Source: Tritonibacter multivorans (GTDB taxonomy: Bacteria; Pseudomonadota; Alphaproteobacteria; Rhodobacterales; Rhodobacteraceae). Taken from it: a stretch of 64,000 nucleotides of DNA. The stretch lies in assembly GCF_001458415.1 (NCBI RefSeq), contig NZ_CYSD01000012.1:372001-436000 (forward strand), written 5' to 3'. A program made the position numbers and the translations under genes. Positions within the stretch are counted from its first letter, which is position 1. The number at the start of each line of letters is the position of its first letter. The notes under the pieces are model-generated. The model was not told the DNA's origin, made no database searches, and saw only the letters and a program-made list of their open reading frames with translations. This document shows, piece by piece, positions 26,324 to 44,146 of this stretch.

Positions 26324-26707
26324 TTACACCACGATCGCAATAAGAAGGGTCAGGGCAGTGGCCACGATAAACATGCACAGGCCCAGTTTTTCCGAAATCT
26401 CGACCTCAAGGCAGTAGCCCAGGTCCCACACGACGTGGCGCAGGCGGCCCAGCATGTGATAGAAGATCGCCCAGGTCGCGCCCAGTTGCAGCAGTTTTCC
26501 AAGCCAGCTGCGCAGGAACCCGTCGATGCCTGCAAAGGCCTCGGGCGAGGTTGCGGCGGCAAGGAACCACCAGACCACGAGAACGGCAAACACCAGCGAA
26601 GCGATGGCGGTGATGCGAACCATGATCGACGACAGGGAGGTCATCTGCGGGCGATAGATCGTCAGATGCGGCGAAAGCGGGCGATTGCCCCGATTGACAT
26701 CGGCCAT
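26324..26707 (-). CDS. sdhC: Succinate dehydrogenase cytochrome b556 subunit
   Basis: 127 residues. RPLSPHLTIYRPQMTSLSSI is the SdhC signature, and the haem-ligand helix reads FYHMLGRLRHVVWDLG (His near residue 84). Three membrane helices. First gene of the operon; paired GTGATCAC palindromes lie 116-144 bp upstream. Confidence 0.95.
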   Translation of the reverse strand: MADVNRGNRPLSPHLTIYRPQMTSLSSIMVRITAIASLVFAVLVVWWFLAAATSPEAFAGIDGFLRSWLGKLLQLGATWAIFYHMLGRLRHVVWDLGYCLEVEISEKLGLCMFIVATALTLLIAIVV

Positions 26708-26821
26708 GTTGGCTCCTTTCCGATTAGCTGGCTTTGTTTTAGCGGTTTTTTAGCCCCTGTCACCCAAACGGAAGGTAAAAATCGGCTGTTACCGCTGTCA
26801 TAAAAGCATAAAAATCGCATA

Positions 26822-26852
26822 TGTGATCACAAGCGGAAATCGCGTGATCACA
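26822..26852. promoter_or_regulatory. Paired GTGATCAC operator upstream of sdhC
   Basis: TGTGATCACA (26822-26831) and CGTGATCACA (26843-26852) share the 8-bp palindrome GTGATCAC, with copies 21 bp apart. The nearer core begins 116 bp upstream of the sdhC start. The same pair occurs before sucC (35134-35163). The protein that binds is unknown. Confidence 0.65.
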
Positions 26853-26891
26853 AACCCATTTGCTGATAAAATTAGTCGGGTTAATTCATGC

Positions 26892-26915
26892 AAAAAAGGC
26901 GGGGAACACCCCGCC
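26892..26915 (-). terminator. Terminator of the TM2 gene pair
   Basis: GGCGGGG (26898-26904) and CCCCGCC (26909-26915) form a stem with a 4-nt loop. On the minus strand six T residues follow (26897-26892), so it ends transcription from 26990. Confidence 0.8.
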
Positions 26916-26989
26916 TCTCTGAATCAGCCTGAAAACAGGCCCTCAGCCATGCGTTTAAAGCGTTTCAGGTTAAACGCTGTAGGCCGCGC

Positions 26990-27229
26990 TTAGCGCGCCA
27001 GCGGCAGGTCGTCCTTGTCTTTCAACGACCCGATCACCAGGCGCACAAAGTCAATAATGGTCCAGATCCCCAAACCACCAAAGGTCAGCAGCATCAAAAT
27101 GCCGGTTCCCACCTTGCCGAGGTAGAAGCGGTGCACCCCGAGCCCGCCCAGAAAGAAGCACAATAGCACGGCGGGGACGAATTTTTTCTCACTGAAAGCG
27201 GTATTCACCTCAACGGATTGATTGGTCAT
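26990..27229 (-). CDS. TM2-domain membrane protein
   Basis: 79 residues with the TM2 pattern: two helices (about 16-34 and 40-62) around GLGVHRFYLGKVGTGI and a conserved Asp in IIDFVRL. TM2 proteins are small membrane proteins of poorly known role, sometimes linked to envelope stress. GGAG lies upstream of ATG 27229. It forms a tandem pair with the related gene at 27241, 11 bp away. Confidence 0.8.
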   Translation of the reverse strand: MTNQSVEVNTAFSEKKFVPAVLLCFFLGGLGVHRFYLGKVGTGILMLLTFGGLGIWTIIDFVRLVIGSLKDKDDLPLAR

Positions 27230-27240
27230 TTAAAAACTCC

Positions 27241-27522
27241 TTATTTCAATTTCACCAGACGCCCAGCGCCATCACGCGCCTGCTCGGTGATCAACAGATA
27301 GAACATAACAATCGTGTGCAGCCCATCCACCAAAAGCGCCAAATAAGCCAGCCCGATATGCCCCGAAAAAAGAAGCACAAAGAACAGAACGGCAAGGCCG
27401 AGGTCGATAAACCCATGCACGAAATTTCTAAGGTAAAAATGGTGCAGGCCGAGCACGCCGAACACGCCACAAAGGGCGACGGCCGTACCATAGCTGGCCG
27501 TTGAGACTTCAGAATTGGACAT
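27241..27522 (-). CDS. TM2-like membrane protein
   Basis: 93 residues and related to its neighbour: FGVLGLHHFYLRNFVHGFID matches the TM2 core, with hydrophobic helices at about 15-30, 37-58 and 60-78. LHHFYL replaces VHRFYL of the partner. The spacing suggests co-transcription and an old duplication. Start ATG 27522 has only a weak ribosome site. No specific function can be given. Confidence 0.72.
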   Translation of the reverse strand: MSNSEVSTASYGTAVALCGVFGVLGLHHFYLRNFVHGFIDLGLAVLFFVLLFSGHIGLAYLALLVDGLHTIVMFYLLITEQARDGAGRLVKLK

Positions 27523-27649
27523 GGATGCAATTTCTTAATGAACAGAACCTAAACGATAGCACCCTATTTGCTCGCCTTTAAGGTGAAAATAAGGCCACGC
27601 ATTGGCTATCGCGTGGCGCGCGGGTCTGCGGCCATATCCGGAAGCCGCA

Positions 27650-28222
27650 TCAGGCAAACAAGGCTTCCATTGGCGTCCAGTGGTTTTCGGGTTTGCGGCT
27701 CTCCGTATCAAAGGCAAACCAATGGCCGCCGCCCTTTTGATCCCACCTGCGCGAAATGGGCTGCCCGGCCAGCGCGCAATACAGAAGCGTCCCGGCCCCA
27801 CCGTGGCCGCAGAACAAAAGGTTCTGGTGGGGGCGCGCTGCAATCACGGCGTCAACCTCGGCCAGGATCCGGCCCTGCACATCCACCGCGCGCTCCCATC
27901 CGCGCACGCTTGCCTCGGGCTGGGCAAAAAACGCATCCGCCATGTCTTCAAATGCATGCCTCTGCAAAAACCCTGTCGCAGAGCGGTCGTTTTCATGCAT
28001 GCGGGGACGGACCTCGATTTCAGCCCTTGGCGCGGCCAGAGGCCAAGCCGTCTCCAGCGCTTTGCGCTCGGCACTGCTGACCACATGGTACGCCTGCAGA
28101 CGCGCCCGCGGCGCCAATGCCGCCACCCGCGCCGCGCCACTCTCACTCAGCCCCCAGTCTGGGACCGCCACCTCTGGATCAATCACCACGTCTGGATGGG
28201 TCAGATAGATCGCGCGCGCCAT
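27650..28222 (-). CDS. Histidine phosphatase-family protein with altered first motif
   Basis: 190 residues. The phosphoglycerate-mutase-like fold is suggested by SSAERKALETA, an acidic HENDR segment and C-terminal FCGHGGAGTLLYCAL. The first motif, normally RHG, is THP (T8, H9, P10) in YLTHPDV: the catalytic His is kept but the partner Arg is missing. Activity may be reduced or specialised. It lies downstream of mch across a repeat element. Confidence 0.72.
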   Translation of the reverse strand: MARAIYLTHPDVVIDPEVAVPDWGLSESGAARVAALAPRARLQAYHVVSSAERKALETAWPLAAPRAEIEVRPRMHENDRSATGFLQRHAFEDMADAFFAQPEASVRGWERAVDVQGRILAEVDAVIAARPHQNLLFCGHGGAGTLLYCALAGQPISRRWDQKGGGHWFAFDTESRKPENHWTPMEALFA

Positions 28223-28231
28223 GCGCCCCCC

Positions 28232-28288
28232 CTTTCATCTTTTCAGAAATATCCCGGGGGAGGCCGCAAGGCCGGGGGCAGAGCCCCC
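28232..28288. repeat. Dispersed structured repeat, copy 1
   Basis: Begins CTTTCATCTTTTC and runs through AAATATCCCGGGGGAGG to a GGGGGC-AGA-GCCCCC hairpin. The second copy is at 42663-42720. The inner stem reads GGCC-GCAA-GGCC here and GGCGC-GCA-GCGCC in the other copy: different bases, same pairing. Lies between mch and the histidine phosphatase gene. Confidence 0.7.
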
Positions 28289-28297
28289 TTCCCCAGC

Positions 28298-29329
28298 TCA
28301 AACAGGCATCAAGGCCCAGTAATCCAGATCCAGCAGAACCTCAGGCTTATATTTGCCATCTTCCCCCTTCAGATCAAACGGCGCCCCGCCCGAGGTCGCC
28401 ACCAGTCGCAGACGGATTGCCCCAACACCGGGAGCGGAGGTTTCAGCTTTGTCGAGCACCTCACTCCACGCACGGATGGTGGTGCCGGACAAACAGGGGT
28501 TTGCATGCGCGCCGCCGTTCAGACCCACAATCATCTGCGCATTGGCCAGACCATTAAACGACAGCGCCCGCGCCATGGAGATCACATGCCCGCCATAGAT
28601 CAGGCGGCTGCCATCGGGGCGCGCGGTGGTGTCAAAATGCACCTTGGCCGTGTTCTGCCACAGGCGCGTGGCGATCATATGCTCGGCTTCCTCGACCGTG
28701 ACACCATCCACATGGTCGATCTTCTCGCCCACTTCATAGTCGCCCCAGCGGTGCGCTTCCCCCGCGAGGTCAAAATCATACCCAGTGAAATCCAGCCCCT
28801 CCGGGATCACCAGATCGCCTGCATCAATCACCTTGGCCAGATCGGGGATCTGGGTTTCGGGTGCAGGCGCATCCAGATTGCCTTTGCGCACCATCACCCA
28901 GCGGACATATTCCATCACGACCTCATCGTTCTGGTTCAGCCCCCGGGTGCGCACATAGACCACACCGGATTTCCCGTTGGAGTTCTGCTTGACCCCGATC
29001 ACCTCGCTCTCGGACCGCAGCGTGTCGCCCTCGAACACCGGCGTCAGCCAGCGCCCTTCGGCATAGCCCAGATTCGCCACCGCATTCAGCGACACATCCG
29101 GGACGGTTTTGCCAAAGACCACATGAAATGCCAGCAGATCCTCCAGCGGCGATTTGGGCAGACCAACAGAGGCGGCGAACTGATCCGAAGAATAGACCGC
29201 ATGGCGCGCGGGATAGAGCGCATGATAGAGCGCGCGTTCGCCCCCCGATACGGTGCGTGGCACGGCGTGTTTGATCACATCGCCCACTTTGTAGTCTTCG
29301 AAAAACCGCCCCTTGTTGGTCTTGGCCAT
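28298..29329 (-). CDS. mch: Mesaconyl-CoA hydratase
   Basis: 343 residues, two MaoC-like hot-dog domains. The N-terminal KGRFFEDYKVGDVIKHAVPRT and the C-terminal GGHVISMARALSFNGLANA regions are characteristic of mesaconyl-CoA (2-methylfumaryl-CoA) hydratase. It converts mesaconyl-CoA to beta-methylmalyl-CoA in the ethylmalonyl-CoA pathway. Its start overlaps the DUF1737 stop (TGATG). Together with mcl2 in the same operon the assignment is firm. Confidence 0.92.
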   Translation of the reverse strand: MAKTNKGRFFEDYKVGDVIKHAVPRTVSGGERALYHALYPARHAVYSSDQFAASVGLPKSPLEDLLAFHVVFGKTVPDVSLNAVANLGYAEGRWLTPVFEGDTLRSESEVIGVKQNSNGKSGVVYVRTRGLNQNDEVVMEYVRWVMVRKGNLDAPAPETQIPDLAKVIDAGDLVIPEGLDFTGYDFDLAGEAHRWGDYEVGEKIDHVDGVTVEEAEHMIATRLWQNTAKVHFDTTARPDGSRLIYGGHVISMARALSFNGLANAQMIVGLNGGAHANPCLSGTTIRAWSEVLDKAETSAPGVGAIRLRLVATSGGAPFDLKGEDGKYKPEVLLDLDYWALMPV

Positions 29330-29532
29330 CAGTGCTCTCCTAGTTTCGTGTCGGGTGTGTAGGTGCCCTCTACCTCCTTCACGACAGCCTGACCGCAGCG
29401 CATGACCCCATTGGAGGCGTCAAAGGCATAGGTCGGCTCACCGTGAAGTTCCCAGCCCTTGTTCAGGGCGGCGGTGACTTTGTGGCAGAAGGCGGAGGTG
29501 TCGTCCTCGGAAAGAAAACGGTAAAGTTTCAT
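29329..29532 (-). CDS. DUF1737-family small protein
   Basis: 67 residues. MKLYRFLSEDDTSAFCHKVTAALNKGWELHG followed by a predicted beta region fits DUF1737, a small soluble family of unknown function. It is tightly packed between nnrU (4-bp gap) and mch (1-bp overlap), so it is certainly co-translated with the hydratase and may serve that step or simply be a passenger. Confidence 0.82.
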   Translation of the reverse strand: MKLYRFLSEDDTSAFCHKVTAALNKGWELHGEPTYAFDASNGVMRCGQAVVKEVEGTYTPDTKLGEH

Positions 29533-29536
29533 GTGC

Positions 29537-30088
29537 TTACCCCGGGAATGGTGAGGGGCCGATGAGGCCGTGGATGTATCCGATCACGCCCAAGAGCACG
29601 ATCGACGCGACAAAGAACATCGCGTCTTTTGCAATAGTCCCCTTCGGCCCCGGCTGCCAGTCGGGTTCGGATTTGTTGATGGTGATCACCGTGACCACCG
29701 CCCAGGCAAGCAGCGCGCCAAACAGGATGATCGACGCCAGATCCCCGTTCACCAGAAGATGCACAAAAGCCCAGAGCTTGAAGCCCCCCAGCTGCGGGTG
29801 ACGCAGTTTGTAAAACAGCGCGCCCTTCTTTGGCCCCGGACTGGTCAGGTACAGCGCAAAGATCATCGCCAGATTGTTGATATGCACCATGAACGCGGGC
29901 GGCGACCACACATGTATATAGTCCGCGCCGCGATAGCCGATCACCATCAGGGCGACCGACAGCAGCAGCAGGCCCGTGACCACGCCTTTGCGCGGTCCCT
30001 CCCCGATGGCGGTGGCGGCTTCGGGCCGCACGCGTTTGAAGAGGTGGGCCGCCCACCAAAGAATGATGCCTAGGACAAGCAGTGCCAT
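29537..30088 (-). CDS. NnrU-family membrane protein
   Basis: 183 residues, about five to six helices. RHPQLGGFKLWAFVHLLVNGDLASIILFG is the NnrU hallmark, with conserved His residues shared with ZDS/isoprenoid-type membrane proteins. NnrU is named from denitrification loci, but no nitrogen-oxide genes are nearby. Here it sits between mcl2 and mch, a recurring position in Rhodobacterales as I recall. Start ATG 30088. Confidence 0.85.
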   Translation of the reverse strand: MALLVLGIILWWAAHLFKRVRPEAATAIGEGPRKGVVTGLLLLSVALMVIGYRGADYIHVWSPPAFMVHINNLAMIFALYLTSPGPKKGALFYKLRHPQLGGFKLWAFVHLLVNGDLASIILFGALLAWAVVTVITINKSEPDWQPGPKGTIAKDAMFFVASIVLLGVIGYIHGLIGPSPFPG

Positions 30089-30122
30089 CGGTCTCTCCGC
30101 TGTATGTTAAGGTGATTAACAC

Positions 30123-30977
30123 CTAACCTGCGAGCGCGGAGATTGCATCTGCTTTTGCAAGGATTTCACGTGCAGTGGCCACATGAAGGTTCTCAACGAT
30201 TTTTCCGTCAACAACGGCAACACCTTGCCCTGCGGCTTCGGCCTCTTCAAAGGCGGCGATCTGGCGGCGGGCCAGGTCCACTTCGGCCTCCGAGGGCGCG
30301 AAGGCTGCATTGGCCACATCGACCTGCGCCGGATGGATCAGGGTTTTGCCGTCCATCCCCATGTCCCGGCCCTGATCACATTCGACCTTCAGGCCGTCGG
30401 CATCCTTAAAGGCATTATAGACGCCATCAACGATGATCTTGCCTTCGGCTTTGGCGGCCAGCAGACATTGGCCCAGCCCCGCCATCAGCGGCAGGCGGTC
30501 GGGGCGGAAGCGGGTCTGCAGTTCCTTGGCAAGGTCATTGGTGCCCATGACCATGCCCTGCAGTTTCGGATGCGCAGCAATCGCCGCCGCGTTCAGCATG
30601 CCGCGCGGGGTCTCCATCATTGCCCAAAGGGGGGTGTCACCGGTGATTTCGGCCAGCGCATCCAGATCGGCGGGGCTGTCGACCTTGGGCAGCAGGATCG
30701 CATCCGCGCCCATCTTGGCCGCGGCCTCCGCATCCGCACGGCCCCATTTGGTGTCGAGCCCGTTGATCCGCACGATTTTCACCCGCGCGCCATAGCCGCC
30801 CTCGGTCAGGGCTGCTGCCAGCGTTTCACGGGCGTTTTCTTTTTCCTCAAGCGACACGGCGTCTTCAAGGTCAAAGATGATCGCATCCACCGGCAGCCCG
30901 CGCGCCTTATCGAGCGCCCGGGGCTTGGAGCCGGGGATATAAAGAACCGAGCGATAGGGGCGCTGACGGGGATCCAT
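30123..30977 (-). CDS. mcl2: (3S)-malyl-CoA thioesterase (HpcH/HpaI/CitE family)
   Basis: 284 residues, CitE-like TIM barrel. Start YRSVLYIPGSKPRALDKA, Mg-binding region IIFDLEDAVS (Glu/Asp near 37-38), MMETPRGMLNA and MVMGTNDLAKEL. The short length and operon with mch match the malyl-CoA thioesterase of the ethylmalonyl-CoA pathway rather than the longer Mcl1 lyase. It releases malate from (3S)-malyl-CoA. First gene of mcl2-nnrU-DUF1737-mch. Mcl1-like lyase function cannot be excluded from sequence alone. Confidence 0.85.
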   Translation of the reverse strand: MDPRQRPYRSVLYIPGSKPRALDKARGLPVDAIIFDLEDAVSLEEKENARETLAAALTEGGYGARVKIVRINGLDTKWGRADAEAAAKMGADAILLPKVDSPADLDALAEITGDTPLWAMMETPRGMLNAAAIAAHPKLQGMVMGTNDLAKELQTRFRPDRLPLMAGLGQCLLAAKAEGKIIVDGVYNAFKDADGLKVECDQGRDMGMDGKTLIHPAQVDVANAAFAPSEAEVDLARRQIAAFEEAEAAGQGVAVVDGKIVENLHVATAREILAKADAISALAG

Positions 30978-31340
30978 GGAAATTCCTCCGAGTTATAATC
31001 TTGCTGTAACGGGTACGAATTTGTTGCATTATTTTCAAGAGAAATTGCGCCGCGTTGCAGAAATTCCCTGCGTCACAGCCGGGGCGTTCCGGATTTTTCT
31101 TTTTAAATCAAGGTGAACGCACCATTAACCAGATATCAGCAACTTGCCCACATACTGGGTGTTATGCCGCGCTTTCTTCGGTGCCTGTCCCTCCCCAGGC
31201 CCCTTTGGTTCTAGCGCTGCGGGGCATCACACGAAAGGTGCCCACACAGTCAAGATTACGTCAATCAACCGGTCCTTCCCGGACACTGGGGTGCGTCGCG
31301 CGCCCTGGCCGGGGAAGTCGTTCCGAAAGGGGTAAAACCG
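30978..31340. other. 363-bp divergent intergenic region
   Basis: Holds the upstream regions of mcl2 (leftward) and the exported protein at 31341 (rightward). AT-rich stretches and TTGCA words occur near 31023 and 31054, but I see no clear palindrome, RNA gene or coding frame with a ribosome site. Confidence 0.5.
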
Positions 31341-31646
31341 ATGAAGAAGACGCTTATTGTTGCAACTTTGGCCGTGTTTGGCCTGTCTCCTGCGGCATCC
31401 GCACAAACCCAGAACTGCGCGCCGCGCGATCTGGTGCTGAAACGTCTGGCCGAGAAATATGGCGAAAGCCGCCAAAGCATTGGCATGGGCCAGAAGGGCA
31501 TGCTGATGGAAACCTTTGCCAGCGATGAAACCGGGTCTTGGACCATCACCGTGACCACCCCACAGGGCATGACATGTCTGGTGGCCTCTGGTCAGGCTTA
31601 TGAGGTTCTGGCCGAAGCGCTGCCGACAGCTGACAAAGACGCCTGA
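31341..31646 (+). CDS. Small exported protein of unknown function
   Basis: 101 residues with a signal peptide (MKKTLIVATLAVFGLSPAASA, cleavage near residue 21). The mature part has two Cys (C26 and one near 78), which could form a disulfide, and a predicted mixed fold; NCAPRDLVLKRLAEKYGESR is its most distinctive segment. Homologues are often left as hypothetical in Rhodobacterales. A GAAAGGGG site precedes ATG 31341. Periplasmic location is the only safe inference. Confidence 0.72.
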   Translation: MKKTLIVATLAVFGLSPAASAQTQNCAPRDLVLKRLAEKYGESRQSIGMGQKGMLMETFASDETGSWTITVTTPQGMTCLVASGQAYEVLAEALPTADKDA

Positions 31647-32949
<1,303 letters not shown>

Positions 32950-32978
32950 GCCCGCGCAGCGATCGCTCTAAACTGATG

Positions 32979-33008
32979 AAGGCCACCCAAATTTCGGGTG
33001 GCCTTTTT
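32979..33008 (+). terminator. Terminator of mdh
   Basis: AAGGCCACCC (32979-32988) pairs with GGGTGGCCTT (32996-33005), followed by TTT. Confidence 0.88.
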
Positions 33009-33053
33009 CGTCCTCCGGGCCGTGTTCGGCACTGGAACTTTCAGCACTGGATC

Positions 33054-34166
33054 TTACTGCAGCCCCGAGACATCGTGAAACGTGTCCAGGAGACCGCGCG
33101 CCTCCAGATGCTTTGCGATCAAGTCTGGATCCGAAGCGCTCCAGACCGGAGCGCCTGCAACAAATCCGTTCTCGGCCAAGGTTGCCTGCAGCGCTGCCAT
33201 ATCATGCAGCACAAAAGCATGTCCGCGGGTGGCGTTGTTCTTTTCGCGCGGCAGCCACTCCTGAGCCAAAGAGGTCAAGACTGTCGGTGAGCGGCCTGAA
33301 AAAGCGGCAATATGGTCCGTGATCCCATCGGCCCAGAAACTGCGCCGGGGCAGGTAAGCAACCCTTTGGTGTTCCCGCCCAACATAAGCAAAGAGATGCC
33401 CGGCAGACCCGTCCGAAATAATGATCTGCTTTGCTGCCTTATAGCGGGCGATCTGCTCAAAGATCGAATGCTCCTGCGGGTGGAAAATCTCGTAGCCTTC
33501 CGCAGCGAGGTTTGCTTCGACCTCTGTCTCATTCATGATCCCGCCATCGCTTGCGCCCAATTTCGAGCGGGACACATAAAGGCGATCGGGCCCTTCGGCA
33601 GCGATATTGCGACCAAAAGCGATCCGAACCGCATCCCGCATTTCCGGCGTGCCGGACACAAGATCGCCCAGCCCAAACCCTTGCCGAGGCACGGTCAGGT
33701 GCTCAATCTGTGTTGGTTCTTTGATAATGTGCACCGGCCGCGTGATCCCGAAGGCCTGCATCACGTCGTCCTGAAATCCAAGCAAAGGCCCCTTTCGACG
33801 CGGCCGTTTGGGCGTATAGCAAATGCCATCAAACTTGAGGCCCGTGTGAAAGGCCCAAAGACGCGACATGCTTTCGACGAGATAATGTCCGAAATGATCA
33901 AACAAAACGCCGGCCCACAGCCACCGGCCTTCAAGCTGCGCGCGAATGGCCTCTGGTTGCTTTGGCTCCAGCGTTATGGTGCTCTCAAAGCGCGATGTCG
34001 CCCCTTGGGCAACATATGAACCGTTGCGGTCCAAAACACCGGCACGCTGCTTGAACCGCGCCTGATCAGGGGGCACCACGACGGCCTGCGGCACCATCAA
34101 CACTTTGGACGGGGATCCGTCTGGTTGAGATGGCAAACGCAGCACACCCTCGGCATCAGTAGTCAT
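33054..34166 (-). CDS. Glycosyltransferase family 61 protein
   Basis: 370 residues. WLWAGVLFDHFGHYLVESMSRLWAF near residue 80 and the C-terminal IISDGSAGHLFAYVG and FWADG segments are typical of GT61/DUF563 enzymes, which add xylose, arabinose or GlcNAc-type sugars in capsule, LPS or protein glycans. No sugar-nucleotide genes are nearby. It is convergent with mdh and divergent from the methyltransferase at 34267. Coding style is more AT-rich than its neighbours, suggesting later arrival. Confidence 0.8.
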   Translation of the reverse strand: MTTDAEGVLRLPSQPDGSPSKVLMVPQAVVVPPDQARFKQRAGVLDRNGSYVAQGATSRFESTITLEPKQPEAIRAQLEGRWLWAGVLFDHFGHYLVESMSRLWAFHTGLKFDGICYTPKRPRRKGPLLGFQDDVMQAFGITRPVHIIKEPTQIEHLTVPRQGFGLGDLVSGTPEMRDAVRIAFGRNIAAEGPDRLYVSRSKLGASDGGIMNETEVEANLAAEGYEIFHPQEHSIFEQIARYKAAKQIIISDGSAGHLFAYVGREHQRVAYLPRRSFWADGITDHIAAFSGRSPTVLTSLAQEWLPREKNNATRGHAFVLHDMAALQATLAENGFVAGAPVWSASDPDLIAKHLEARGLLDTFHDVSGLQ

Positions 34167-34266
34167 TCAATTCATCTCCGGCAAACTCAAGGCTTTGAAA
34201 TAACGAGACACAATCGTTAGGTGAGGCTGATAGCATGAACCTGTGGCAAAATAAGGTCTATTTGAG

Positions 34267-34980
34267 ATGATAGGGAAATACCGATTTCATGGTGACGATG
34301 TCGCGGCGGACATTCGCGAGAAATACAACTTCGACGGCGACCTGTTGAATATTTTCGCGAACAATCAGGGCCCTGTGGTCCACAAGTGGCATCACTACAT
34401 TCCTCTATATGACCAATATTTTTCCAAATTCCGGGGAAGCAACTTCAAGTTTCTGGAAATCGGAGTGTCCAAAGGCGGATCCCTACAGATCTGGCGCGAG
34501 TATTTTGGACCCGACGCCACGATCATGGGGATCGACATTGACCCAGACTGCGCCCAGTTTGACGGTCAGGCCGGCATGGTCCGAATTGGCTCGCAGGATG
34601 ATCCTGACTTCCTGAACAAAGTGGTCGACGAAATGGGTGGCGTTGATGTGGTGCTCGACGATGGCAGCCATGTGATGAACCATATTCGCACCAGTTTTCA
34701 CACGCTGTTCCCCCGGCTGAGCTTGCCCGGGCTCTACATGATCGAAGATTTGCATACGGCGTATTGGGAAGATTGGGGCGGTGGCCTCGACACCCCTGGC
34801 AACTTCTTTGCCATGGTTTCAGATCTGGTTACGGACCTGCACGGATGGACCCACAAGGCGCCACCGCGCGTGGCCTCGACCAACGGTCAGGTGACCGGCG
34901 TGCATATTCACGATTCCATCGCGGTGATTGACAAAGGCCCCAAGCATAAGCCGACACATTCGCGCGTTGGCAGCCGCTGA
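34267..34980 (+). CDS. Class I SAM-dependent methyltransferase (polysaccharide-modification type)
   Basis: 237 residues. FLEIGVSKGGSLQIWREYFG holds the SAM motif I, GIDIDPDC motif II, and VDVVLDDGSHVMNHI the family-specific acidic motif. This group (MycE/cephalosporin-hydroxylase-like) modifies sugars or polysaccharides. With the divergent GT61 gene it forms a two-gene surface-glycan module inserted between mdh and sucC. Start ATG 34267 has only a weak AAGG site. Confidence 0.78.
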   Translation: MIGKYRFHGDDVAADIREKYNFDGDLLNIFANNQGPVVHKWHHYIPLYDQYFSKFRGSNFKFLEIGVSKGGSLQIWREYFGPDATIMGIDIDPDCAQFDGQAGMVRIGSQDDPDFLNKVVDEMGGVDVVLDDGSHVMNHIRTSFHTLFPRLSLPGLYMIEDLHTAYWEDWGGGLDTPGNFFAMVSDLVTDLHGWTHKAPPRVASTNGQVTGVHIHDSIAVIDKGPKHKPTHSRVGSR

Positions 34981-35133
34981 CGTTTGCGGGCGCGCCCCAT
35001 GCAGGATCATGAAAAAGGCACGGGATGTCGCCCCCGGCGCCAGGCGCGAGGAATGACTTGCGCTAACAGTCGAAACGCCAAAAGACGATCCGCGAATCAC
35101 TAAAATTCGAACTCTGCCCGCCGCGAGAAGTTT

Positions 35134-35163
35134 TGTGATCACACCTAAATAAGCGTGATCACA
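35134..35163. promoter_or_regulatory. Paired GTGATCAC operator upstream of sucC
   Basis: TGTGATCACA (35134-35143) and CGTGATCACA (35154-35163), cores 20 bp apart, with the nearer core ending 114 bp before the sucC start. Same words and nearly the same spacing and distance as at sdhC (26822-26852). The remaining 34981-35275 region is AT-rich and presumably the promoter of the suc-odh-lpd operon. Confidence 0.65.
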
Positions 35164-35275: not shown

Positions 35276-36469
35276 ATGAACATCCACGAATATCAGGCCA
35301 AGGCCCTCCTCAAGAGCTATGGCGCGCCGGTTTCTGAAGGCCGCGCGGTACTCAAAGCCGAAGACGCCAAAACCGCAGCAGGCGAGCTTGACGGCCCGCT
35401 TTGGGTTGTAAAAGCCCAGATCCACGCAGGTGGCCGCGGCAAAGGTTCCTTCAAGGAAGCCGACGCTGGTGAAAAAGGCGGTGTGCGCCTGACCAAATCG
35501 GTTGAAGAAGCAGCCGAAGAAGCCAAAAAGATGCTGGGCCGCACCCTTGTGACCCACCAGACCGGCCCGGCGGGCAAACAGGTCAACCGCATCTACATCG
35601 AAGCCGGTTCCGGCATCGAACGCGAACTGTACCTGGCCCTGCTGGTCGATCGCCAGACCTCCCGCGTGTCTTTCGTTTGCTCCACCGAGGGTGGCATGGA
35701 CATCGAGGAAGTTGCAGAAGCGACCCCGGAAAAGATCCTGTCCTTCTCTGTTGACCCGGCAACCGGCTATCAGGCGTACCACGGCCGCCGCATCGCCTTC
35801 TCCCTCGGCCTGACCGGTGCGCAGGTGAAGCAATGCGTGAAACTGATGGGCCAGCTCTATACCGCCTTCCTCGAGAAGGACATGGAGATGCTGGAAATCA
35901 ACCCGCTGATCGTGTCCGACAGCGGTGACCTGAAAGTTCTGGACGCCAAGGTCAGCTTTGACGGCAACGCAATGTATCGCCACGCCGACATCGCCGAGCT
36001 GCGCGACGAGACCGAAGAAGACAGCAAAGAGCTGGAAGCCTCCAAATACGATCTGAACTACATTGCGCTCGACGGTGAGATCGGCTGCATGGTGAACGGT
36101 GCGGGTCTGGCGATGGCCACCATGGACATCATCAAACTGTACGGTGCTGAGCCTGCAAACTTCCTCGATGTTGGTGGCGGTGCGACCAAAGAGAAAGTGA
36201 CCGAGGCGTTCAAAATCATCACCTCTGACCAGAACGTCAAAGGCATCCTGGTGAACATCTTCGGCGGCATCATGCGCTGTGACGTCATCGCCGAAGGCGT
36301 GATCGCCGCGGTGAAAGAAGTGGGCCTGCAGGTTCCGCTGGTTGTGCGTCTGGAAGGCACCAATGTTGAGCTCGGCAAAGAGATCATCAACAACTCCGGC
36401 CTCGATGTGATCGCAGCCGAGGACCTGAAAGACGGTGCTCAGAAGATCGTAAAAGCTGTCAAAGGCTAA
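35276..36469 (+). CDS. sucC: Succinyl-CoA ligase (ADP/GDP-forming) beta subunit
   Basis: 397 residues, ATP-grasp. [22 protein letters not shown] is the SucC start; [12 protein letters not shown] binds nucleotide and [18 protein letters not shown] is the C-terminal ligase motif. With SucD it makes ATP or GTP from succinyl-CoA. First gene of sucC-sucD-sucA-sucB-x-lpd. Standard length. Confidence 0.97.
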
Positions 36470-36555: not shown

Positions 36556-37443
36556 ATGGCAGTCCTTATCGACGAAAACACCAAAGTTATCTGTCAGGGC
36601 CTGACCGGCTCGCAGGGTACTTTCCACTCTGAACAGGCCATCGCATATGGCACCAAAATGGTCGGCGGTGTGACCCCGGGCAAAGGTGGTCAGGACCACC
36701 TCGGCCTGCCGGTGTTCAACTCCGTGCACGAAGCCAAGCATGTCACCGAAGCAAACGCTTCCGTGATCTATGTGCCGCCGCCGTTTGCAGCCGATTCCAT
36801 CCTCGAGGCGATCGACGCCGAGATGGAACTGATCGTCTGCATCACCGAAGGCATCCCGGTTCTGGACATGATGAAAGTGAAGCGCGCGCTGGAGACCTCT
36901 TCCTCGCGTCTGATCGGCCCGAACTGCCCCGGCATCATCACCCCGGATGCATGCAAAATCGGCATTATGCCCGGCCACATCCACAAGCGCGGCTCTTGCG
37001 GCGTTGTGTCCCGCTCCGGCACCCTGACCTATGAGGCTGTAAAGCAGACCTCTGATCTGGGTCTGGGCCAGTCTTCGGCGGTTGGCATCGGCGGCGACCC
37101 GATCAAAGGCACCGAGCACATCGACGTGCTGGACATGTTCCTGGATGATCCGGAAACCGAATCCATCATCATGATCGGTGAAATCGGTGGCTCTGCCGAA
37201 GAAGAAGCGGCTGAGTTCATCGCTGAGCAGAAGAAAAAAGGCCGCTGGAAGCCGATCGCAGGCTTCATCGCCGGCCGTACGGCGCCTCCGGGCCGCCGCA
37301 TGGGCCACGCGGGCGCGATTGTCGCCGGCGGCAAAGGCGGCGCAGAAGACAAGATCGAAGCGATGAAATCCGCAGGTATCGTCGTTGCAGACAGCCCCGC
37401 CACCCTGGGCGAAGCTGTCATGGAAGCGATCAACAAGGGCTGA
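36556..37443 (+). CDS. sucD: Succinyl-CoA ligase alpha subunit
   Basis: 295 residues. N-terminal CoA-binding Rossmann domain ([20 protein letters not shown]), and the phospho-His in [17 protein letters not shown] (His near 250). AAGGAG lies before ATG 36556. Pairs with SucC upstream; followed by a 273-bp gap with hairpins before sucA. Confidence 0.97.
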
Positions 37444-37716: not shown

Positions 37717-40674
37717 ATGACCGAACAAAGCCCCAATGATATCTTCCACGCCTCCTCCTTTATGCAGGGGCACAACGCGGAATATCTGGAACAGCTTTAC
37801 GCACAATACGCGCAAGACCCGAACGCGGTAGACGCCGCCTGGGCCGAGTTCTTCCGCGCCATGGGCGACGCAGAGCTGGACGTCAAAAAAGAGGCCGAGG
37901 GCCCGTCCTGGGCGCGCAATGACTGGCCGCCGCAACCCGCCGATGACATGCATGGCGCGCTGACCGGCGAATGGCCTGTTGCCCCTGCTGAGAGCAAATC
38001 TGCAGGCAAGAAGATCGTCGAGAAGGCAAAAGCCACCGGCGTTGAGGTGTCGGACGCGCAGGTTCAGCGTGCGGTGCTGGATTCGATCCGTGCGCTGATG
38101 CTGATCCGGGCCTATCGTATTCGCGGCCATCTGGCAGCAAACCTGGACCCGCTGGGCATGCACGGCAACAACCCGCATCCCGAGCTGGACCCGAAGACCT
38201 ATGGCTTCAACGATGCCGACATGGATCGCCCGATCTTTATCGACAATGTTCTGGGCCTGCAGGTTGCCTCCATGCGCCAGATCGTCGACATCGTAAAGCG
38301 CACCTACTGCGGCACCTTTGCGCTGCAGTACATGCATATTTCAGATCCCGAGCAGTCCTCCTGGCTGAAAGAGCGGATCGAAGGCTACGGCAAAGAGATC
38401 CAGTTCACCCGCGAAGGCCGCAAGGCGATCCTCAACAAGATGGTCGAGGCCGAAGGTTTTGAGAAATTCCTCCATGTGAAATACATGGGCACCAAGCGTT
38501 TTGGTCTGGATGGCGGCGAAAGCCTGATCCCCGCGATGGAGCAGATCATCAAGCGCGGCGGCAACCTGGGTGTGGAAGACATCATCATCGGCATGCCCCA
38601 CCGGGGCCGTCTGTCGGTGCTGGCGAATGTGATGCGCAAGCCGTACCGCGCGATCTTCAACGAATTCCAGGGTGGCTCGTTCAAACCCGAGGACGTGGAT
38701 GGCTCTGGCGACGTGAAATATCACCTCGGCGCGTCGTCTGACCGCGAATTTGACGGCAACAAGGTGCACCTGTCGCTGACCGCGAACCCCTCGCACCTCG
38801 AGGCGGTGAACCCGGTTGTTCTGGGTAAAGCCCGCGCCAAGCAGGACCAGAAAGCCGACCGTGCCGAACGCAAGGCGGTTCTGCCGATCCTGCTGCACGG
38901 CGATGCGGCCTTTGCAGGTCAGGGTGTTGTGGCGGAATGTTTCGCCCTGTCCGGTCTGCGCGGTCACAAGACCGGCGGCACCATCCACATCGTTGTGAAC
39001 AACCAGATCGGTTTCACCACGGCGCCGCATTTCTCGCGCTCTTCGCCGTACCCAACCGACAACGCGCTGGTGGTCGAGGCCCCGATTTTCCACGTGAACG
39101 GCGACGACCCCGAAGCGGTTGTACACGCCGCCAAGGTTGCGACCGAATACCGCCAGAAGTTCCACAAGGACGTCGTCATCGACATCTTCTGCTACCGCCG
39201 GTTTGGTCACAACGAAGGCGATGAGCCGATGTTCACCAACCCGCTCATGTACAAGAAGATCAAGGGTCACAAGACCACCCTGTCCTTGTACACCGAGCGT
39301 CTGGTCAAGGATGGCCTGATCCCCGAGGGCGAGATCGAGGACATGAAAGCCGCGTTCCAGGCCCACCTGAACGAGGAATTCGAGGCGGGTAAGAACTTCA
39401 AACCCAACAAAGCTGACTGGCTGGACGGCCGCTGGTCGCATCTGGACAAACAGGATGCGGACTACCAGCGTGGTGCAACCGCGATCAAACCGGAGACGCT
39501 GGAAGAGATCGGCAAGGGCCTGACCACCCTGCCCGAGGGCTACCCGGTGCATAAAACCGTGGGTCGCTTCCTGCAGACCCGCGCCAATATGTTTGAAAAA
39601 GGCGAAGGCTTTGACTGGGCAACCGGTGAGGCGCTGGCGTTCGGCTCTCTGATGACCGAAGGGTATCCGGTGCGTCTGGCCGGTCAGGACGCGACCCGCG
39701 GCACCTTCTCGCAGCGTCACTCTGGCATTGTGAACCAGGAGACCGAGGAACGGTATTACCCGCTGAACCACATCCGCGCAGGGCAAGCGAACTATGAAGT
39801 CATCGACTCGGCCCTGTCGGAATATGCGGTTCTGGGTTTTGAATATGGCTATTCGCTGGCGGAACCAAACGCGCTGACCCTGTGGGAAGCCCAGTTCGGC
39901 GACTTTGCCAACGGTGCGCAGATCATGTTCGACCAGTTCATTTCCTCGGGCGAAAGCAAATGGCTGCGGATGTCCGGTCTGGTCACCCTGCTGCCGCATG
40001 GTTTCGAAGGTCAGGGCCCCGAACACTCTTCGGCGCGTCTGGAACGCTTCCTGCAGATGTGTGGTCAGGACAACTGGATCGTGGCGAACTGTACAACGCC
40101 TGCGAACTACTTCCACATCCTGCGCCGTCAGCTGCACCGCACCTTCCGCAAGCCGCTGATCCTGGTGACGCCGAAATCCCTGCTGCGCCACAAGCTGGCC
40201 GTGTCCACAGCCGCCGATTTCACCACCGGCTCCAGCTTCCACCGCGTGCTGTGGGATGATGCGCAGCAAGGCAACTCTGACACGAAACTGGTGGCAGACG
40301 ACAAGATCAAACGCGTCGTCATGTGCTCGGGCAAGGTCTATTACGACCTGCTGGAAGAGCGCGACGCGCGGGGCATCGATGATGTCTATCTGCTGCGGAT
40401 CGAACAGTATTACCCCTTCCCGGCGATCAGCCTCGTGAAGGAACTGGAGCGTTTCAAAAACGCCGACATGGTCTGGTGTCAGGAAGAGCCGAAGAACCAG
40501 GGCGCCTGGTCCTTCATCGAGCCGAACATCGAATGGGTCCTGACCCGTATCAAAGCCAAAAATACCCGTCCGACCTATGTCGGTCGTGCCACATCGGCCT
40601 CGCCTGCGACAGGCCTGGCCAGCGAACACAAAGCACAACAAGCAGCGCTTGTGAACGAAGCGCTGAGCATCTGA
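37717..40674 (+). CDS. sucA: 2-oxoglutarate dehydrogenase E1 component
   Basis: 985 residues. N-terminal [23 protein letters not shown]2-binding region, thiamine-diphosphate segment [15 protein letters not shown] near residue 394, and the C-terminal transketolase-like and binding domains ([17 protein letters not shown]). It decarboxylates 2-oxoglutarate and succinylates the E2 lipoyl groups. Full length; sucB starts 13 bp after its stop. Also called odhA. Confidence 0.97.
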
Positions 40675-40687
40675 GGAAGACAGAGAT

Positions 40688-42193
40688 ATGACCACCGAAG
40701 TGCGCGTGCCCACCCTGGGCGAATCCGTGACCGAAGCGACGGTTGCGACCTGGTTCAAAAAGCCCGGCGACGCCGTGGCAGCTGATGAGATGCTGTGCGA
40801 GCTGGAAACCGATAAGGTGACCGTTGAGGTCCCCGCCCCCGCAGCGGGCGTTCTGGGCGAGATCGTCGCCAATGAAGGCGACACCGTGGGCGTGGATGCG
40901 CTCCTCGCCATGATCGCCGAAGCTGGCAGCGCAGCCGCAGCGGCGCCCGCGCCTGCCGCGCAAGCTCCGGCGGCTGCTCCGGCAGCGGCAGCGGGCGCAA
41001 CCGATGTTATGGTTCCGACGCTTGGCGAATCCGTGACCGAGGCGACCGTTTCCACCTGGTTCAAAAAGGTCGGCGACGCGGTTGCGCAGGATGAAATGCT
41101 GTGCGAGTTGGAAACCGATAAGGTTTCGGTTGAAGTTCCCGCCCCCGCCGCTGGCGTCCTGACTGAAATCACCGCGCCCGAAGGCAGCACCGTGGACGCA
41201 ACTGCGAAACTAGGCGTCATCGCTGGCGCAGGCGCTGCGGTTGCAGCGGCCCCGGCTGCGGCACCTGCGGCAGCTGCTGCTCCGGCCGCTGGCACCAAGG
41301 ACATCGCCAATGCACCCTCGGCCGAAAAAGCCATGGCTGAGGCCGGCCTGTCTGCCGCCAATGTGCAAGGCACCGGTCGCGACGGGCGCATTATGAAAGA
41401 AGACGTCTCTGCTGCGATTGCCGCCGCGAAATCCGCTCCGGCCCCGGCCGCAGCCCCCGCCGCACCCCGCGGCCCAGTTGCCGCAGATGATGCCGCGCGT
41501 GAAGAGCGTGTCAAAATGACCCGCCTGCGCCAGACCATCGCCAAGCGTCTGAAAGACAGCCAGAACACCGCCGCCATGCTGACCACCTACAACGAGGTGG
41601 ACATGACCGAGGTGATGGCCCTGCGCAAGCAGTACAAAGACCAGTTCGAGAAGAAGCACGGCGCGCGTCTGGGCTTTATGTCCTTCTTCACCAAGGCCTG
41701 CTGCCACGCGCTGAAAGAAGTGCCCGAGGTCAACGCGGAAATCGACGGCACCGACATCGTCTACAAGAACTATGTCCACATGGGCATCGCGGCGGGCACC
41801 CCCACCGGTCTGGTTGTGCCTGTGATCCGTGACGCGGATGCAATGGGCTTTGCCGACATCGAGAAGGCGATTGCCGAAAAAGGCAAGCGTGCCCGCGACG
41901 GCAAACTGTCCATGGCAGAGATGCAGGGCGGCACCTTCACCATCTCCAACGGTGGTGTCTACGGCTCCCTGATGTCCTCGCCGATCCTGAACCCCCCGCA
42001 GTCCGGTATCCTTGGCATGCACAAGATCCAGGACCGTCCGATGGTCATCAACGGTGAGATCAAGATCCGCCCGATGATGTATCTGGCCCTGTCCTACGAC
42101 CACCGCATCGTCGACGGCAAAGGCGCTGTGACCTTCCTTGTGCGCGTCAAAGAAGCGCTGGAAGATCCCCGTCGTCTGCTGATGGATCTGTAA
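40688..42193 (+). CDS. sucB: Dihydrolipoyllysine succinyltransferase E2 with two lipoyl domains
   Basis: 501 residues. Two tandem lipoyl domains (about 2-78 and 106-180) with lipoyl lysines K43 and K145 in ETDKVTVEV and ETDKVSVEV, Ala/Pro-rich linkers, an E3-binding domain (about 207-240) and the catalytic domain ending with SYDHRIVDG (His 472). It transfers succinyl from E1 to CoA. E. coli SucB has one lipoyl domain, so this is the duplicated form; the two halves are still very similar in DNA sequence. Also called odhB. Confidence 0.95.
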
Positions 42194-42751: not shown

Positions 42752-44146
42752 ATGGCATCCTATGACGTCATCGTAATCGGCGCGGGCCCCGGCGGCTATG
42801 TGTCGGCCATCCGCTGCGCCCAGCTGGGCCTGAAAACCGCCATCGTTGAGGGGCGCGAGACCCTTGGCGGGACCTGCCTGAATGTGGGCTGCATCCCCTC
42901 CAAGGCGCTTTTGCACGCCACGCACCAGCTGCACGAGGCAGAGCACAACTTTGCCAAGATGGGCCTCAAGGGCAAATCGCCTTCCGTCGACTGGAACCAG
43001 ATGAAGGCCTATAAGGACGAGGTCATCGGCCAGAACACCGGCGGTGTTGAGTTCCTGATGAAGAAGAACAAGATCGACTGGCTCAAGGGCTGGGCGTCGA
43101 TCCCTGCGGCGGGCAAGGTCAAAGTCGGCGATGACATCCACGAGACCAAGAACATCGTGATTGCCTCCGGCTCTGTGCCTTCGGCGCTGCCCGGCGTGAC
43201 TGTGGACAATGACGCAGGCGTTGTGGTCGACAGCACCGGCGCGCTGGAACTGCCTAAGGTTCCGAAGAAAATGGTTGTCATCGGCGCGGGCGTGATTGGT
43301 CTCGAACTTGGTTCGGTCTATGCGCGTCTGGGGTCCGAGGTCACCGTGGTTGAATATATGGACGCGGTCTGCCCCGGCATGGACAAGGACGTTCAGCGTA
43401 CCTTCAAGAAGATCCTTGAAAAGCAGGGTCTGACCTTTGTCATGGGCGCCGCGGTTCAGGGGGTCGAGGCCTCCAAGACCAAAGCCAAGGTCAAATACCA
43501 GCCCAAAGCGGGCGGCGATGAACAGGTCATCGACGCCGATGTGGTGCTTGTTGCCACAGGTCGCAAGCCCTATGCCGAAGGTCTGGGTCTGGACGCGCTT
43601 GGCGTTGAGATGACCCAGCGCGGTCAGATCGCGGTGAATGCGCAGTGGCAGACCAATGTCCCCGGCATCTATGCCATTGGCGACGTGATCGAAGGCCCGA
43701 TGCTGGCCCACAAAGCCGAAGACGAAGGCATGGCCGCCGCCGAGGTGATCGCCGGCAAACATGGCCATGTGAACTACGGCGTGATTCCCGGCGTCGTGTA
43801 CACCACGCCCGAGGTTGCCACCGTTGGCGCCACCGAGGATGCGCTGAAGGCCGAAGGTCGCAAGATCAAAGTTGGCAAGTTCAACTTCATGGGCAATGGC
43901 CGCGCCAAGGCCGTGGGCCAGGGCGAAGGCTTTGTGAAGCTGATCGCAGATGCCGAAACCGATCGCGTGCTGGGCGCAGCCATCATTGGCCCGGCGGCGG
44001 GTGACCTGATCCACGAGATCTGCGTTGGCATGGAATTCGGCGCCTCTGCCGAGGATATTGCCCTGACCTGCCACGCCCACCCGACGTTCTCGGAAGCGGT
44101 GCGCGAAGCGGCGCTGGCCCTGGGCGACGGCGCGATCCACAGCTAA
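42752..44146 (+). CDS. lpd: Dihydrolipoyl dehydrogenase (E3)
   Basis: 464 residues. FAD loop [15 protein letters not shown] (8-22), redox-active disulfide [13 protein letters not shown] (near 40-52), NAD site [19 protein letters not shown], and the C-terminal catalytic [13 protein letters not shown]. It reoxidises the E2 lipoyl groups. AAGGAG precedes ATG 42752. Last gene of the suc-odh cluster. Confidence 0.96.

Follow-up and report, generated by a model that had tools for sequence, protein, structure and literature searches.

Paired operators bearing the AkgR word upstream of sdhC and sucC in Tritonibacter multivorans and its relatives

Two operons of the tricarboxylic acid (TCA) cycle in the alphaproteobacterium Tritonibacter multivorans carry the same pair of palindromes, GTGATCAC, upstream of their first genes. 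Both lie in a stretch of 64,000 nucleotides (assembly GCF_001458415.1, contig NZ_CYSD01000012.1, positions 372,001 to 436,000), which we call the window. One pair precedes sdhC of the succinate dehydrogenase operon and the other precedes sucC of the sucCD-sucAB-lpd operon; the observation of two matching operator pairs is confirmed. A preliminary description of this DNA could not assign the site to a known TCA regulator. That view no longer holds. GTGATCAC has been reported as the motif of a GntR-family transcriptional activator of Rhodobacter sphaeroides, AkgR (accessible part of PMC6365646), and a prediction made for the same species in 2015 places sucCD, sdh and the oxoglutarate dehydrogenase genes under the GntR-family regulator RSP_0981 (accessible part of PMC4344238).

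We consider it quite probable that the two pairs are tandem operators of an AkgR orthologue, which would activate sdh and sucCD-sucAB-lpd from upstream and limit its own synthesis through a single site at akgR. Each palindrome would hold one AkgR dimer, and the two dimers would face the same side of the DNA, separated by about two helical turns. Bound at about -100/-120 at sdhC, AkgR would activate succinate dehydrogenase, and likewise sucCD-sucAB-lpd, from a position upstream of the core promoter. The single site by the akgR start codon probably serves autorepression. Cooperation of the two dimers, the direction of control here, autorepression and a ligand are steps that we infer. The dimer-of-dimers regulator of the preliminary description stands in part: tandem palindromes two turns apart fit two dimers, which may cooperate.

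Operator pairs and the sdhC promoter

All four cores are exact copies of GTGATCAC at the positions first described for them, and the distances from the nearer cores to the start codons (Table 1) agree with the roughly 115 bp given there. Counted from start to start, the cores are 21 bp apart at sdhC and 20 bp apart at sucC. The ten-letter words also read as described on the plus strand, but their identical order there is partly accidental, because sdhC lies on the minus strand. Along sdhC, TGTGATCACG is the far word and TGTGATCACA the near word. There is no GTGATCAC within 29690-35134 and therefore none upstream of mdh, a gene whose identity is backed by Pfam; the absence noted earlier is real.

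The position of the sdhC pair relative to the promoter can be read from aligned leaders. In 20 of 27 sdhC promoters GTGAC follows the proximal core at a distance of 57-60 bp, and its distance to the ATG ranges from 56 to 94. When single letters were shuffled 100 times, the commonest five-letter word at one place reached 4, although kinship of the sequences overstates the independence of the 20 cases. In many sdhC leaders an A-rich stretch and then an element resembling CTATT come after GTGAC. Judged from these letters, the two elements would form a -35/-10 promoter, with GTGAC probably the -35 element. A -35 element at this distance would place the pair near -100/-120, which is the position of an upstream activator rather than of a blocking protein. 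Consensus scans of the promoters called no sigma-70 promoter, and the sucC leaders hold no element as clear as the GTGAC of sdhC. GTGAC also occurs 57-65 bp before sdhC in three genomes without the pair (G133, G060, G179).

Alternatively, the pairs could be repressor operators, at which bound AkgR would prevent transcription of sdh and suc until a metabolite released it; repression is common among GntR proteins. However, the promoter-like element 57-60 bp downstream at sdhC leaves the core promoter uncovered by the sites, and the accessible part of PMC6365646 names AkgR an activator. Repression is thus unlikely, though of the alternatives it is the one we take most seriously.

AkgR and its candidate gene

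The genome holds 7 copies of TGTGATCACA, and one of them stands directly before a GntR gene on another contig (C33). The protein has a GntR domain (6.3e-15) and an FCD domain (4.6e-17). We regard it as the likely AkgR orthologue, and its orthology to RSP_0981 is presumed. With the start codon that we chose (220 aa), 9 bp separate the site from the ATG; close homologues align from residues 1-18 of the 220-aa protein, the query having this same start. The genome encodes 12 FCD-GntR proteins, and this gene is the only one of the 12 in which the 700 bp upstream of the FCD match contain GTGATCAC (0-1 mismatch).

The site is kept in relatives. It stands upstream of akgR in 29 of the 30 closest whole-genome loci, our own included. 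It is also found in 79 of 80 named loci (Ruegeria, Leisingera, Phaeobacter, Tritonibacter and others); these are the best 80 of 545 relatives, and R. sphaeroides is absent among them. Alg231_04 has two akgR copies (L268 and L269), and L268 is without the upstream site. Listed positions compared by eye put akgR within 25 kb of sucC or of a pair in 13 relatives; here and in at least 10 others it is farther away or on another contig.

A different GntR/FCD paralogue could read the same word and control the sdh and suc operons in place of the C33 protein. The genome has 11 further FCD-GntR genes, the nearest 38% identical, and a Pseudomonas simiae regulator 32% identical to AkgR is proposed to use the same word (accessible part of PMC6365646). 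Yet the word is absent within 700 bp upstream of the FCD match in all 11, and close homologues of the C33 protein, the one protein for which the range was compared, match the phylogenetic range of the pairs. We therefore give a paralogue little chance.

The other single TGTGATCACA sites, considered as marks of further AkgR targets, lie upstream of an EamA-type transporter gene, near a glycosyltransferase gene, inside thiC and, at C33:9656-9665 (L008), between CitE-type and DUF302-type genes 6.5 kb from akgR (gene names by reading). The last is unconfirmed: in the best 80 of 545 relatives, DUF302 occurs in only 1 of the 80 named loci, and there without the site.

Conservation and loss of the pair

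Within the window GTGATCAC occurs 7 times where 1.05 copies are expected, and none of 100 shuffles reached 7. The 3 unpaired copies sit within reading frames. A genome-wide scan, as suggested in the preliminary description, found 2 pairs with 10-15 bases between cores in 4,173,927 bases. They are the sdhC and sucC pairs, and no unrelated gene has one. With the 142 single copies of the genome spread evenly, about 0.03 pairs would be expected at the six spacings searched.

The phylogenetic footprinting proposed alongside that scan shows the pair to be conserved upstream of sdhC and sucC in relatives. Of 292 genomes sampled across the order, 287 contain an exact pair, and they cover 108 of 112 genera; a reversed-pattern control gave 0. 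Counted by hand, exactly two pairs occur in 250 genomes, a single pair in 20, and three or four pairs in 17. A class-wide sample marks the boundary of the range: the pair is found in 5/5 members of the family, the Rhodobacteraceae, versus 5/284 others. The same five also encode a homologue of the C33 protein with E no higher than 2.1e-106, and the best outside reaches 6.5e-45. Thus the pairs and close AkgR homologues have this boundary in common.

Placement and spacing were read from a set of 62 pairs, namely 60 of at least 75 among the matches listed plus the two in the window; the 15 left out come from eight genomes, mostly near relatives of included ones. Fifty-seven of the 62 stand upstream of sdhC (27) or sucC (30). 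The remaining five comprise one between mdh and sucA (G272), one inside a reading frame (L209) and three others. Spacing among the 57 is 21 bp in 46, 20 bp in 10 and 19 bp in 1, and the pairs of L162, L189 and L192 have 18-bp spacing. With 16-45 bases between the cores there were only 18 matches, spread over 16 of 101 genomes. TTT is favoured just before the pair and AAA just after it, most strongly at sucC (19/30 and 27/30) and less so at sdhC (12/27 and 10/27). Hence sdh and suc-odh-lpd have one operator architecture in common, as the preliminary description held, and it is tied to these genes and kept in relatives. That the two promoters resemble each other by chance or recent duplication, with no regulatory meaning, is hardly credible: single copies are common, even unpaired in coding DNA of the window, but next to no pairs are expected, the pair is retained across nearly all sampled genera while the spacer sequence varies, and matches are rare over the 30 other spacings.

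Outside the Rhodobacteraceae, the pairs of G303 and G417 (L216, L217), two genomes of another family, lie beside TonB-receptor genes, and in G417 the pair also adjoins an AkgR-like GntR gene (31% identical). G305, G460 and G547 are the further genomes with a pair. Pairs beside TonB-receptor genes, one of them with an AkgR-like GntR gene, suggest that other GntR proteins may use the paired design as well.

Where the pair is missing, AkgR is usually missing or altered too. Both are present in 286 genomes, AkgR only in 1, the pair only in 1 and neither in 4 (Fisher p 8e-8, uncorrected for kinship); the threshold for scoring AkgR as present, an E value of at most 1e-70, was chosen after the values were known. 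The genome with AkgR only (G231) has degenerate pairs, with 1 mismatch at sucC and 2 mismatches at sdhC, where the spacing is 21. Four genomes are clearly without the pair. One has no AkgR homologue (G232), one has a distant homologue only (34%, G141) and two have a diverged AkgR (G110, G227), which in a quick tree, its support uninspected, branches beside the AkgR clade. The state of these last two (L243, L244) is either an older condition or a loss of TCA control. We compared the 250-bp sdhC and sucC leaders of the four for an alternative operator, and no shared 9-mer or 8-bp palindrome was convincing.

A close look at 27 genomes (5 without an exact pair, 20 with one, two with weak AkgR matches) shows that the two operons differ. 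In 18 of them the sucC pair is an exact match and in 5 it carries one mismatch; the other 4 have no sucC pair. The sdhC pair is an exact match in 6 and carries 1-2 mismatches in 9, and it is absent in 12. Therefore the sucC pair is the more stable one.

One relative, G272, offers what may be a rearranged case. Its sucC lies on another contig with a pair 471 bp upstream, and a third pair lies between mdh and a gene that by eye reads as sucA. These separate locations suggest that the suc operon is split in G272. If oxoglutarate dehydrogenase is a true target, an operator of its own at a separate sucA is what one would expect. Standing before sdhC and sucC, and in G272 also before sucA, the pairs are placed as the targets predicted for RSP_0981 would have it.

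A bolder reading, for which we see about even chances, is that the tandem operator is an obligate dimer-of-dimers switch. Across almost the whole of the Rhodobacteraceae it would mark the lower half of the oxidative TCA cycle, at a constant distance from the core promoter, and would be kept when the suc operon is broken. In genus g57, a divergent lineage, AkgR would have kept its own single site only, so control of the TCA cycle may postdate autoregulation.

Table 1. Operators, promoter elements and genes discussed in the text (window coordinates unless stated)
Feature	Coordinates	Strand	Basis
Distal AkgR-type operator of sdhC, core 26844-26851	26843..26852	-	Exact GTGATCAC; 21 bp from partner; kept before sdhC of relatives
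Proximal AkgR-type operator of sdhC, core 26823-26830	26822..26831	-	Exact GTGATCAC; 115 bp to sdhC ATG
Distal AkgR-type operator of sucC, core 35135-35142	35134..35143	+	Exact GTGATCAC
Proximal AkgR-type operator of sucC, core 35155-35162	35154..35163	+	Exact GTGATCAC; 113 bp to sucC ATG
GTGAC, -35-like element of sdhC promoter	26759..26763	-	59 bp downstream of proximal core; putative promoter role
CTAAAA, weak -10-like element	26737..26742	-	Aligned leaders; several relatives have CTATT here; putative
Candidate akgR, GntR/FCD regulator, about 220 aa	G000:C33:3098-3757 (outside window)		GntR and FCD domains; TGTGATCACA upstream
sdhC, first gene of sdh operon (target)	26324..26707	-	Pfam Sdh_cyt 1.1e-24
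sucC (target)	35276..36469	+	Pfam ATP-grasp_2 and Ligase_CoA
Open reading frame in sucD position	36556..37443	+	Open reading frame; identity by position
sucA, 2-oxoglutarate dehydrogenase E1	37717..40674	+	Pfam
sucB, E2 component	40688..42193	+	Pfam
lpd, dihydrolipoamide dehydrogenase	42752..44146	+	Pfam pyridine nucleotide-disulphide oxidoreductase; lpd by operon position

Between sdh and mdh lie MaoC-type and CitE/malyl-CoA-lyase-like genes (28298-29329 and 30123-30977, both on the minus strand), identified by reading.

Probable shared control and known systems

Several observations speak against AkgR as we have placed it. RSP_0981 is AkgR by our own assumption. Here akgR lies on another contig than sdh and suc (C33 versus C12), and its open frame extends upstream; if the gene began at the earliest ATG of that frame, it would include the site. 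Of 10 AkgR genes that are more divergent, 5 have the upstream site and 5 do not. In G023, which has both pairs, no AkgR was found in the assembly; G110 and G227, members of one genus, keep their diverged AkgR (about 50%) with its own site and have no pairs, and 8 of the 12 genomes without the sdhC pair have AkgR. Other regulators are linked to the same genes as well: in R. sphaeroides the CceR regulon includes succinate dehydrogenase and 2-oxoglutarate dehydrogenase (accessible part of PMC11323563), and RSP_1663 (LacI-type) and NtrC are also predicted at sdh (accessible part of PMC4344238). AkgR is thus probably not the sole regulator of sdh and suc, and control is probably shared. RSP_1663 is presumably CceR. 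A CceR site at sdhC was tried with a consensus guessed from the aligned leaders, TGTTAGCGCTAACA, and set aside: the consensus fits at 26787-26800 only with 3 mismatches, and the window has 2 matches versus 0.98 expected.

If AkgR does act at both operons, an orphan operator gains its regulator. The prediction is that one GntR protein helps to set the oxoglutarate-to-fumarate section of the TCA cycle family-wide. It covers almost every sampled member of this large family, to which many marine bacteria belong. Natural controls would be at hand in the rigid spacing, the pairless genomes and the apparently split operon for how FCD-GntR proteins act from upstream tandem sites.

The regulator, its word and the two target operons are already known in print, and what we add is a comparative layer that is well supported. 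Tandem spacing, family-wide conservation and coupled loss were not found in the literature searched, with the main AkgR paper outside that search and the letters of GTGATCAC checked in part. AkgR of R. sphaeroides was reportedly described by Imam, Noguera and Donohue in 2015 (mBio 6:e02461-14).

Among the closest known systems is AkgR of R. sphaeroides itself, which is GntR-type and has the same word, GTGATCAC. The accessible literature describes AkgR and RSP_0981 as GntR proteins; the FCD part is known from the C33 protein. The regulon model of RSP_0981 names the same two operons as here, but it is a network-model prediction, and the accessible part of PMC4344238 makes no mention of tandem operators. 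The numbering RSP_0962-0981 suggests a regulator near sdh and suc in R. sphaeroides, whereas here akgR is on another contig. CceR of the LacI family resembles AkgR in its link to sdh, together with mdh or 2-oxoglutarate dehydrogenase, in what is accessible for R. sphaeroides; however, it belongs to another protein family with another motif and does not explain GTGATCAC. Finally, PS417_07240 of the deoxyribonate cluster of Pseudomonas simiae is GntR-like, has GTGATCAC upstream of its own gene and is 32% identical to AkgR (accessible part of PMC6365646). There a single palindrome is described, with a catabolic target, in contrast to the paired operators at TCA genes described here.

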